The notes under the pieces were generated by a model. It was not told the DNA's origin, searched no databases, and saw only the letters and a list, made by a program, of their open reading frames with translations. From positions 868,001 to 932,000 of the forward strand of contig NZ_CP118631.1 of assembly GCF_028993635.1 (NCBI RefSeq): a stretch of DNA of 64,000 bases, read 5' to 3'. The position numbers and the translations under genes were made by a program. This DNA is from Mucilaginibacter sp. SJ. GTDB lineage: Bacteria; Bacteroidota; Bacteroidia; Sphingobacteriales; Sphingobacteriaceae. Positions 19,734 through 63,092 of the stretch are shown one piece after another; the first letter of the stretch is position 1, and each line of letters opens with the position of its first letter.

Positions 19734-19765
19734 TTTGAGGTTAACGGATACTTATTGTATTTTTG
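19734..19765 (+). promoter_or_regulatory. promoter of the cobalamin-riboswitch transcript
   Basis: TTTG at 19734-19737, 20 bases, then TATTTTTG at 19758-19765, an exact match to the Bacteroidota -33/-7 consensus. The predicted transcript start (about 19772) is just upstream of the riboswitch fold. Confidence 0.7.
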
Positions 19766-19771
19766 CGGCGC

Positions 19772-19940
19772 TTTAGGTTTCATTATTTGTTTAATGAATT
19801 AAAAGGGAATACGGTGTAAATCCGTAACTGTCCCGCAGCTGTAAGCTCCGTAACCGTTGCCAAATCTATATAGCCACTTTCTGTAAACAGGAGGGAAGGC
19901 CAGGCAAAATGGGGAGCAAGTCAGAAGACCTGCCAAGGCG
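19772..19940 (+). ncRNA. cobalamin riboswitch
   Basis: An RNA switch that binds adenosyl- or methylcobalamin and lowers expression of the genes below it. Recognisable elements in order are AGGGAATACGGTGTAAATCC (19803-19822), the CTGTCCCGCAGCTGTAAG core, GCCACTTTCTG, GGGAAGGCCAGGC, and the B12 box AGTCAGAAGACCTGCC at 19919-19934. It sits 130 bases upstream of the BtuB start, so the receptor and probably the following membrane protein respond to B12. Confidence 0.95.
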
Positions 19941-20071
19941 TTATATGTTATTCATAGCTTTCGGGGATTGAAGCTTGGATGTGAATGCTCTTCGTTTGGC
20001 GTGTTTTCATTTTATTCATTTCCGTGTATGCTATTAAGGCTGCATTATTATTTTATACATATCAATCATAC

Positions 20072-59094: not shown

Positions 59095-59205
59095 ATGAAA
59101 AGTTTAATTAAATTTACCCAACGCAACACTTTTTACACCTTAAACGGTAACGTACAACATATTAGCTCCCCTATTGGCTATATTTGTATGTGTTGCTGCT
59201 GTTGA
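59095..59205 (+). CDS. cysteine-rich leader peptide upstream of metY
   Basis: An ATG-initiated ORF of 36 codons directly after the SAM riboswitch. It begins Met-Lys-Ser-Leu-Ile-Lys-Phe, is normal in composition to residue 30, and ends Cys31-Met-Cys-Cys-Cys-Cys36-TGA. Five of the last six codons are Cys (TGT/TGC) in a region that should be an untranslated leader. This is the pattern of an attenuator peptide that senses charged tRNA-Cys. Downstream (59206-59330) two hairpins are possible: CACGC..TTTTCA-TTCTC-TGAAAA..GCGTG (about 59213-59244) and AACCGGTT-loop-AACCGGCT (about 59251-59273). Translation and mechanism are inference; the Cys-ended ORF is directly seen. Confidence 0.75.
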   Translation: MKSLIKFTQRNTFYTLNGNVQHISSPIGYICMCCCC

Positions 59206-60650
<1,445 letters not shown>

Positions 60651-60781: not shown

Positions 60782-60801
60782 ACAATGTGACAAATAACAG
60801 A

Positions 60802-61857
60802 ATGAACGCAGAGATATTTAAATACACTGACACTTTTGAATTTGAATCGGGCCGCACAATTGAAGGTTTAGAAATAGGTTTTCATACTTATGGCCGGTTA
60901 AATAAGGAAAAAAATAACGTTGTTTGGGTTTGCCATGCGCTTACCGCCAATAGCGATGTATTTGACTGGTGGAAAGGGCTTATTGGTGAGGGTTATTTTT
61001 TTAATCCGGAAGAGCATTTTATAGTTTGCGCCAATATTTTGGGTTCGCCTTATGGAACAACAAGTCCGTTGAGCATTAACCCGGTTACCGGCCAGCCTTA
61101 TTATCTTTCATACCCCCAGTTTACTACAAGGGATATGGTTAAAGCACACCAGTTGCTTGCCCAGCATTTAAACATTAATAATATCAGCGTATTAATTGGT
61201 GGTTCATTAGGCGGCCAGCAGGCTATGGAATGGGGTATTATTGAACCAGAACGGATTAAAAACCTTATCCTGATAGCAACCAATGCTAAACACTCGCCAT
61301 GGGGTATCGCTTTTAACGAATCGCAGCGTTTAGCTATCACAGCCGATCGTACTTTTTACAGTAATACGCCCGAAGGCGGTCAGAAAGGCTTAAAAGCCGC
61401 ACGCAGTATTGCGCTTTTAAGTTATCGTACTTATAAAACTTACGGCATTACCCAGCAGGAAGAAGCTGACGATGTGCAGGACAATTTCCGTTCTTCGTCG
61501 TATCAAAACTACCAGGGACAGAAGCTGGTGAACCGCTTTAACGCTTATAGTTATTGGTACCTAACCAAAGTGATGGACTCACACAATGTGGGCCGCGGCC
61601 GTCACGGTGTAGATAAAGCGTTGAGCCTCATCAAGGCAAAAACATTAGTTATCGGCATCTCATCGGATGTTTTGTTCCCTATTGAAGAGCAGCAATACCT
61701 ATTCAGGCATATCCCTAAAGCTGCCTTTGCCGAACTGGATTCGTTTTATGGGCACGATGGATTTTTAATTGAAACAGAAGCATTAACAAACATATTTACA
61801 TCGTTTTTTAAAACTGATGTGAAAGGAAAAATTATAGAACTGCAACGTACAGCGTAA
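60802..61857 (+). CDS. metX: homoserine O-acetyltransferase
   Basis: Activates homoserine with acetyl-CoA for methionine synthesis. The protein has the alpha/beta-hydrolase nucleophile element Gly-Gly-Ser-Leu-Gly-Gly-Gln-Gln-Ala-Met-Glu-Trp near 135-146, His-Ala-Leu-Thr near 45 and a C-terminal Gly-His-Asp-Gly-Phe-Leu with the catalytic His. A GTG at 60787 is in frame, but the ATG at 60802 starts the conserved part and is preferred (351 residues). The stop codon overlaps the hom start (TAATG), so the two are translationally coupled. Confidence 0.95.
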   Translation: MNAEIFKYTDTFEFESGRTIEGLEIGFHTYGRLNKEKNNVVWVCHALTANSDVFDWWKGLIGEGYFFNPEEHFIVCANILGSPYGTTSPLSINPVTGQPYYLSYPQFTTRDMVKAHQLLAQHLNINNISVLIGGSLGGQQAMEWGIIEPERIKNLILIATNAKHSPWGIAFNESQRLAITADRTFYSNTPEGGQKGLKAARSIALLSYRTYKTYGITQQEEADDVQDNFRSSSYQNYQGQKLVNRFNAYSYWYLTKVMDSHNVGRGRHGVDKALSLIKAKTLVIGISSDVLFPIEEQQYLFRHIPKAAFAELDSFYGHDGFLIETEALTNIFTSFFKTDVKGKIIELQRTA

Positions 61858-63092
61858 TGAGTAAAAAGTTAAATATCGGCCTCTTCGGATTTGGAGTTGT
61901 TGGCCAGGGATTATATGATATCATCAAAACAAAGCATTTAAATATCGAGATAGTAAAATTTGCTATTAAGGATCCTAATAAAAAACGTTCTTTACCGGCA
62001 CATTTATTTACTACCGATAAAGAAGAGCTGCTTAACAATCCCGAGATCAATACCATTGTTGAATTGATCAATGATACTGAAGCTGCTTTTGAAATTGTTT
62101 CAAGAGCATTAAAATCTGGCAAAAACGTAGTATCTGCCAGTAAAAAAATGATTGCCCTTCATTTGGATGAACTGATCGAAATTCAGCACCAGTATGGTAC
62201 TTCATTATTATATGAAGGTGCGGTTTGCGGTAGTATCCCTATTATCCGCAATTTGGAAGAGTATTATGATAACGAATTACTGCATTCGATAAGCGGTATT
62301 TTCAACGGTTCATCAAACTATATCCTTTCAAAAGGCTTTATTGAAGGGCTCGATTATGATAGCGCATTGAAACAAGCCCAGGACCTGGGTTTTGCCGAAA
62401 CCGACCCAACAAGTGATGTTGGAGGTTTTGACGCCAAATATAAACTGGTTATTGCCGCTGCACACGCTTATGGCGTAGTTGTACAGCCCGATCAAGTATT
62501 TAACCTGGGCATTCAGAACCTTGCAGCTGCAGATTTGCAATATGCCCGCGAAAAGAACCTCAAAATTAAACTGGTACCTGTAGCCAAAGAACTTGACGAC
62601 CGCAACGTTGCTCTCTTTGTATTACCTAAGTTTGTAAACGACAAAGAGTTTTTATACAACGTTGAGTACGAATATAATGGCGTAACCGTACAGGCCGCCT
62701 TTGCCGATCAGCAATTCTTTTTCGGGAAAGGCGCGGGCGGTCATCCTACCGGTTCGGCAGTATTATCTGATATAGCAGCTTTGCGTTATAACTATCAATA
62801 CGAATACAAAAAAGCTAAAGAGAAAACAGACCTTAATTTTACCAATAACATTGAATTAACCATTTACCTGCGTTATGACGATGAGGAACTGGTTGAAGCG
62901 CTGAATTTTGAACACATCAATGAGCGTTACTATTCAGGTAATTATAAATTTGTTATAGGAAAAATCAATTTGCAAAATCTGATCGCTAATCAACTTCGTA
63001 TATCTGAGAGTAAGGCTTTCGTAGCCTTTGCCGATCAGCTTACGGGGGTCAGCTTAGCATCGGTAACTAAACAAGCGGCCGAAGTGTTTTAA
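61857..63092 (+). CDS. hom: homoserine dehydrogenase, monofunctional
   Basis: Reduces aspartate semialdehyde to homoserine, which feeds metX. The 411 residues carry the nucleotide loop Gly-Phe-Gly-Val-Val-Gly near 11-16, Ser-Ala-Ser-Lys-Lys near 94-98, Gly-Ile-Phe-Asn-Gly-Ser-Ser-Asn-Tyr-Ile-Leu near 147 and Asp-Pro-Thr-Ser-Asp-Val-Gly-Gly near 181. No aspartokinase domain is fused, and the C-terminal 70 residues do not look like a standard ACT domain. The position in the SAM-controlled operon suggests a methionine-dedicated isoform. Confidence 0.94.
   Translation: MSKKLNIGLFGFGVVGQGLYDIIKTKHLNIEIVKFAIKDPNKKRSLPAHLFTTDKEELLNNPEINTIVELINDTEAAFEIVSRALKSGKNVVSASKKMIALHLDELIEIQHQYGTSLLYEGAVCGSIPIIRNLEEYYDNELLHSISGIFNGSSNYILSKGFIEGLDYDSALKQAQDLGFAETDPTSDVGGFDAKYKLVIAAAHAYGVVVQPDQVFNLGIQNLAAADLQYAREKNLKIKLVPVAKELDDRNVALFVLPKFVNDKEFLYNVEYEYNGVTVQAAFADQQFFFGKGAGGHPTGSAVLSDIAALRYNYQYEYKKAKEKTDLNFTNNIELTIYLRYDDEELVEALNFEHINERYYSGNYKFVIGKINLQNLIANQLRISESKAFVAFADQLTGVSLASVTKQAAEVF

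Follow-up and report, generated by a model that had tools for sequence, protein, structure and literature searches.

A conserved cysteine-run leader ORF behind the SAM-I riboswitch of a Bacteroidota metY operon is a likely cysteine attenuator

Results

A short ORF ending in cysteine codons lies between a SAM-I aptamer and metY

The window, that is, the whole 64,000-nucleotide stretch of Mucilaginibacter sp. SJ DNA that we analysed, contains a sulfur amino acid locus on its forward strand. The locus begins with a SAM-I riboswitch aptamer (RF00162, 58977..59087, +), identified by cmscan (80.8 bits, E 2e-17) and by its fold; as the gathering threshold is 44.4 bits, it is a full member of the SAM-I family. 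The 3′ strand of its P1 helix (TATAAAT) ends just 5′ of the ATG of a short leader ORF (59095..59205, +; ATG...TGA), with 7 bases between the aptamer end (59087) and the ATG. The 36 codons of this ORF encode MKSLIKFTQRNTFYTLNGNVQHISSPIGYICMCCCC and are followed by the stop codon; directly 5′ of this stop are the putative sensor codons TGT ATG TGT TGC TGC TGT (Cys Met Cys Cys Cys Cys; 59185..59202, +). The leader peptide matched no NCBIfam family. Downstream of the leader is the putatively controlled gene, metY, encoding O-acetylhomoserine sulfhydrylase (59331..60650, +; TIGR01326, 678.6 bits, cut-off 495), then a metX-like homoserine O-acetyltransferase gene (60787..61857, +), whose top NCBIfam matches (TIGR01392/PRK00175) stayed under the equivalog cut-off, and a homoserine dehydrogenase gene (61857..63092, +; NF004976, 320 bits). 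The metX-like gene is likely to belong to the metY transcription unit, and we infer that aptamer and leader ATG share one transcript. A sequence-only reading of this stretch had described a 36-codon ATG ORF 7 bases past the SAM riboswitch with five cysteines among its last six codons, which held exactly; its placement 126 bases upstream of metY nearly held, as we measured 125 bases from the leader stop to the metY ATG (59331).

The source of the window is close to M. gossypii: the region is ∼89–94% identical to a named M. gossypii locus from our genome scan. A plasmid DNA similarity search gave no match. Elsewhere, the window also carries a cobalamin riboswitch (RF00174, 112.3 bits; 19757-19951, +).

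The leader frame is conserved and its cysteine tail is under amino-acid-level selection

In the metY loci of the same genus that were first examined, the leader ORF was present in 30/30, the window's own included. In these 30 genomes, it is an ATG ORF of ∼30–45 codons at the same site behind the aptamer, and its cysteine-run end is mostly CMCCCC or CMCCCCC. To widen the sample of metY upstream regions, we added sixty more genomes from the family and forty from the class, and counted a leader wherever an ORF of ≥15 codons with ≥3 cysteines in its last ten residues started no more than 130 bases from the aptamer core. By this count, 71 of 91 SAM-metY regions of Bacteroidia had such a leader, and 0.42 were expected from dinucleotide shuffles. 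The 91 regions are those in which a text search found the aptamer core and represent a lower bound, as several regions scored as free of an aptamer do contain RF00162; moreover, the counts come from related genomes and are not independent events. The leader ORF is thus real and far from chance. Cysteines cluster at its very end: at least two of the last four residues are cysteine in 67 of the 71 leaders, and the median distance from the last cysteine to the stop is 0 codons. Outside the family the layout recurs with unrelated sequences, such as RMRMCCWCPCCC (L114), CCMCICCPCC (L118), MMMPMCCCCCSSC (L121), TMCMCCCCMC (L136) and TCCCCCC (L129).

Substitutions within the genus differed between the two parts of the ORF. 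Across 42 related pairs, non-independent and with sequences in common, pS was 0.31 and pN 0.19 in the first part (pN/pS 0.62), compared with pS 0.39 and pN 0.03 (pN/pS 0.07) in the last seven codons. TGT and TGC are freely swapped in the tail while the cysteine stays. These values favour selection on codon meaning in the cysteine tail, at the amino-acid rather than the nucleotide level. Translation of this conserved frame is itself inferred, in the absence of ribosome data.

Genus g16, in the same family, is an exception that the cysteine model leaves unexplained. Its metY leaders (L079, L084, L087, L088, L090, L092, L094) also stand behind a SAM riboswitch, end Arg-Met-Arg-stop (CGAATGCGNTAG) without a cysteine run, and are followed after the stop by GTCGTC...GACGAC. 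A nucleotide core, YGNAUGYG, is common to these and the CMC leaders and remains unexplained. It could suggest that what is conserved is an RNA element, YGNAUGYG plus a hairpin, in which the reading frame is incidental: g16 would read the same core as Arg-Met-Arg ahead of GTCGTC...GACGAC, and in genus g14, TGTATG and CATACA could pair across the cysteine run. However, the interchange of TGT and TGC with the amino acid kept, and a frame that stays open over 30–53 variable codons in 71 loci, make this explanation very unlikely.

Another remote possibility is that the peptide itself is functional, either as a Cys/Met-rich mini-protein that binds metal or serves redox chemistry, or as a nascent chain that senses metal. 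Cysteine, methionine and sometimes histidine are metal ligands, and histidine also occurs in some leaders of relatives without a SAM riboswitch (L124, L141). Against this, both length and sequence drift outside the Cys/Met tail, and even the spacing within the tail varies (CMCCCC, CCMCMCCC, YMCCCCMC). The neighbouring genes are those of sulfur amino acid and sulfate metabolism, not metal genes, and the antiterminator geometry in relatives (described below) fits codon sensing. Such weak constraint on all but the tail is what one expects of a leader peptide but not of a functional mini-protein.

Relatives without a SAM riboswitch carry predicted Met/Cys attenuators before metY

Many metY upstream regions of Bacteroidia that lack RF00162 contain one or two leader ORFs dense in methionine and cysteine codons. 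Examples are the two leaders of L125, MNKNYNTMCTCMRLFAEGCCICAC and ...IAMMMCCMRFSDGERC, and the pieces ...HMQMMCMCCYM... (L122), ...MMMCCCM... (L132), ...MMCCCC... (L138) and MNNTVVNKMMMCCKMPMCIPIYCC (L149). At L122, L125, L132, L135, L138, L149, L150 and L151, metY stands behind Met/Cys attenuators that have intrinsic terminators, in most cases as a tandem pair. A terminator with a U-tract was detected after 14 of 15 such leaders examined (−13.9 to −20.7 kcal/mol), and in those 14 the 5′ arm of the terminator can pair with a leader segment past the main Met/Cys cluster (duplex −6.8 to −19.5 kcal/mol), as in L125, where CGCTGAAGGGTG lies against AAAAGCCCTTCAGCA. If the ribosome were held up at the Met/Cys codons, this segment would stay free and the antiterminator could form; if it ran on, the ribosome would cover the segment and the terminator would form. 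These loci therefore read as classical attenuators with starvation as the ON signal, an inference from sequence and folding only.

Internal methionine codons number 1.9 in SAM leaders versus 4.3 in non-SAM leaders, a comparison that is biased because the latter were picked for their Met/Cys clusters.

The window lineage has a C-rich stretch and hairpins but no intrinsic terminator

No intrinsic terminator was found 3′ of the leader in the window, and none that was convincing in its genus. Folding predicts two hairpins without a U-tract, hairpin 1 (59210..59247, +) and hairpin 2 (59253..59271, +), and in the genus the RNA behind the leader folds more stably than its shuffles (mean z −2.07). The combination of a terminator and a mutually exclusive antiterminator, which is met in relatives without the SAM riboswitch, is thus unmet in the window and its genus.

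Two further signs of a conserved switch were considered and rejected. Covariation in hairpin 1 amounted to just five consensus pairs, one of them with double changes. A conserved 1:2 / 2:3 switch, with the cysteine codons pairing with hairpin 1, looked good in single sequences (L022, L027, L033, L120) but lacked overall significance; for the 5′ arm of hairpin 1, shuffling of the downstream arm gave a mean z of about 0 outside the genus and only −0.85 within it, and randomisation of synonymous codons gave a mean z of −0.30 in the genus. We do not claim this pairing.

Just past the leader stop lies a C-rich, G-poor stretch (59206..59245, +), which we infer to be a candidate Rho-loading (rut-like) segment. 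C exceeds G behind the leader stop in 32/33 sequences of the genus and 23/25 other sequences of the family. The difference C minus G is 0.109 over the first 40 nt past the stop and falls to 0.035 over the 40 nt that follow (p 2e-7); compared with other SAM 5′ UTRs (0.067), the leader stretch is only slightly higher (p 0.03).

The main rival to a transcriptional readout has the same leader and the same sensor, with translation of metY as the output: where the ribosome stands on the leader would change access to, or re-initiation at, the metY start. The absence of a U-tract terminator in the window lineage speaks for this possibility, as does the description of mycobacterial polycysteine ORFs as translation attenuators (PMC13236596, PMC9031893). 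However, hairpins 1 and 2 stand 60–120 bases 5′ of the metY ATG and leave it uncovered, and the relatives without the riboswitch rely on transcription terminators. Control of metY translation remains possible. Our preferred reading is a transcriptional one. In riboswitch lineages, the cysteine run abuts the stop, whereas in terminator lineages it is further inside; because of this difference, a tna-like, Rho-dependent readout appears the best candidate for the window lineage. We hold it with moderate confidence, and dependence on Rho is inferred.

Cysteine-run leaders are tied to metY and occur before other sulfur genes

Within Bacteroidia, SAM aptamers that precede metH, metB-type, metE or metF genes are not followed by a terminal cysteine run, which ties the run to metY and not to the aptamer; a Cys leader as a trait of all SAM riboswitches was accordingly rejected. 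Doubtful exceptions are a few SAM leaders with some cysteines before SusC, redox or other genes: L181 (RMCMELCCSS), L192, L194 and L163. In other Bacteroidia, the first gene mostly lies ∼35–200 bases behind the SAM aptamer.

We scanned one genome per species (84,980 species) for ORF ends with exactly Cys-Met-Cys4-stop. The scan returned 117 stretches, and 36 of the 80 examined stand directly 5′ of metY, nearly all of them from named Bacteroidota and one titled only 'bacterium'. By a hand estimate that assumes equal base frequencies, ∼8 chance matches are expected in 257 Gb; bare MCCCC matches without a longer ORF, spread over many phyla, resemble chance. Gene names at the scan loci other than those of metY were read from sequence without a family library, except at L224 and for the redoxin gene described below.

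Beyond metY, plausible cysteine-run leaders precede sulfate assimilation or sulfite reductase genes in Chitinophagales and other Bacteroidota: cysH-cysD-cysN-cobA-cysJ-like-cysI (L224; Pfam matches), the similar cysH-cysD (L230), and cobA-cysJ-cysI-sirC-like genes (L263). Another follows a SAM aptamer and precedes metX-hom (L264). Others lie 5′ of SusCD with a sulfatase (L245, L277) or of other TonB/SusC receptors (L208, L215, L232). In the window's own genome, a redoxin (AhpC-TSA) gene stands behind two tandem short ORFs that end MPMCCCC and YGLCRCC (C1:1474318-1474460, minus strand; L003/L355), and its ortholog in M. pineti (L270) has a similar Cys leader upstream. Within 1.5 kb of Mucilaginibacter sulfate-assimilation genes (loci of 14 genomes), no Cys leader was found, nor did a wider look at the own genome reveal one; this absence counts against the attenuator reading.

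Several further observations stand by themselves. The sulfate-assimilation operon of the own genome lacks a Cys leader, and the gene in front of it (L351:4861-5295) resembles an Rrf2/CymR-type regulator. Adjoining this operon is a SusC-type receptor leader, ...LLTAVCCC (L351:13947-14021, −), and another, ...NMQSMHCCC, lies near C1:2424170 (L163/L353). A promoter-proximal motif resembling CTACTAANTCTATAGAC was seen 5′ of Cys-run leaders and one SAM riboswitch (L354, L355, L356, L357, L208, L215, L218, L245, L270). For the motif CTAYTWANNYTATAGAC, common to these promoters, the four best-looking one-mismatch matches in the own genome comprise three followed by Cys-run leaders and one followed by another SAM riboswitch. 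With two mismatches, the motif was no commoner genome-wide than a control, so only the best matches may be meaningful. The shared promoter-proximal motif could be the operator of a sulfur regulon.

A model for gated cysteine attenuation of metY

Comparison shows the conservation of the ORF, the amino-acid-level selection on its tail, its link to metY and other sulfur genes, and the Met/Cys attenuators of relatives. Built on this, and in the absence of expression or ribosome data, the likely role of the leader is that of a ribosome-mediated cysteine attenuator of the metY operon, with its terminal cysteine codons gauging tRNA-Cys charging. For the window lineage, translation of the leader, its response to tRNA-Cys, the part of Rho and the sign of control are all inferred.

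Because the aptamer P1 ends beside the leader ATG, SAM binding should hinder initiation at the leader, and gating of the leader by the riboswitch is likely, again as an inference. Ribosomes of Bacteroidota mostly ignore Shine-Dalgarno signals. When SAM is plentiful, the P1 helix would close beside the ATG and ribosomes would be kept off the leader; when SAM is low, the leader would be translated. With ample Cys-tRNA, the ribosome would then reach the stop and leave, the C-rich RNA would be exposed, and transcription would tend to end before metY. This premature termination would most likely occur through Rho, which we propose because no U-tract terminator is present. With Cys-tRNA short, the ribosome would stall in the cysteine run beside the stop and either shield the C-rich RNA or alter hairpin 1, and metY-metX-hom would be transcribed.

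The sign could also be the opposite, such that stalling at the cysteine codons turns metY off and spares sulfide for cysteine synthesis. The rationale of the sequence-only reading was that homocysteine synthesis competes with cysteine synthesis for sulfide. MetY does consume sulfide, and translation of the leader through to its stop could open hairpin 1. However, the non-SAM relatives have their antiterminator segment 3′ of the main Met/Cys cluster, which makes stalling an ON signal. The same leader ending is also found in front of cysH and cysI operons, and shutting these off during cysteine starvation would make no sense. We therefore consider this alternative unlikely. The sulfide rationale is unsupported, as in the relatives that can be read, stalling at Met/Cys codons would favour the antiterminator and metY expression, and it is further weakened by the occurrence of the same ending 5′ of cysteine-synthesis operons.

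The remaining claims of that reading fared better. It had taken the cysteine run as a mark of attenuation, which is supported by the conserved frame and tail, the amino-acid constraint and the relatives with full Met/Cys attenuators. It had named a lack of conservation of the frame or of the terminal run as refuting; checked by sequence comparison, both are conserved over genera and families. Sensing of tRNA-Cys charging is likewise supported by comparison, and the output step in the window lineage, which has no intrinsic terminator, is inferred.

Discussion

Bacteroidota are dominant in soil and gut, and the control of their sulfur amino acid genes is poorly known. A bolder reading joins two proposals: that Bacteroidota possess a regulon of cysteine-codon leaders covering metY, sulfate assimilation and sulfur scavenging, and that in many lineages metY swapped the methionine codons of a Met+Cys attenuator for a SAM riboswitch that gates translation of the Cys leader left behind. 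Taken jointly, we would give these about an even chance. If true, one transcript would decide on two inputs, with the aptamer reading SAM and the ribosome reading Cys-tRNA, and the riboswitch would control the sensor ORF, not the gene. Some lineages have Met and Cys codons plus terminators, others a SAM riboswitch plus Cys codons; this contrast suggests that one half of a leader-peptide sensor can be taken over by a riboswitch. A short ORF with a cysteine-run end also offers a simple sequence handle for finding sulfur-limitation genes, SusCD-sulfatase loci included.

Leaders with cysteine codons are already known or predicted elsewhere; within the literature searched, what is new is the proposed Bacteroidota regulon and its proposed coupling to a SAM riboswitch. 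Neither a Met/Cys or Cys leader in Bacteroidota nor a SAM riboswitch coupled to a Cys leader was found in that literature, which left out most subscription papers and supplements. Clues to leader peptides have been noted in general terms in flavobacteria (PMC9723704).

The closest parallels are the polycysteine leader ORFs of mycobacteria and other Actinobacteria (PMC1262725 (2005); Canestrari et al. 2020 as cited in PMC13236596 and PMC9031893). They too are short ORFs with a cysteine run near the stop, lie upstream of cysteine or sulfur genes and lack a terminator hairpin, with candidate Rho sites proposed downstream. However, the mycobacterial ORFs studied are leaderless, with the AUG at the mRNA 5′ end, and to our knowledge no riboswitch precedes actinobacterial polycysteine ORFs, whereas the window leader starts directly behind a SAM-I aptamer, before metY and in Bacteroidota. 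The uORFC-8-2 motif before cysS in Rhodobacterales is also a predicted Cys-codon attenuator (PMC8632094); unlike the window leader, it has two internal cysteine codons and an intrinsic terminator, serves an aminoacyl-tRNA synthetase gene and belongs to Alphaproteobacteria. In Sinorhizobium metA, a SAM-II riboswitch is found with an upstream AUG and a terminator (PMC9373788), similarly a second layer of control after a SAM riboswitch and before a methionine gene. There, the riboswitch is SAM-II, AUG1 is in frame with metA, and the published model does not involve cysteine codons.

As in the trp, his and leu attenuators, the regulatory codons are those of amino acids of the pathway, and the non-SAM Bacteroidia also have terminator and antiterminator in the expected places. 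Unlike in these classical systems, the codons are for both methionine and cysteine, two attenuators often stand in tandem, and the window lineage has no intrinsic terminator. Compared with a typical RF00162 member, the start codon nearest to the window aptamer is that of the Cys-run leader and not that of the gene. Such a riboswitch, with its nearest start codon in an ORF that senses an amino acid, would form a compact natural gate with two inputs.
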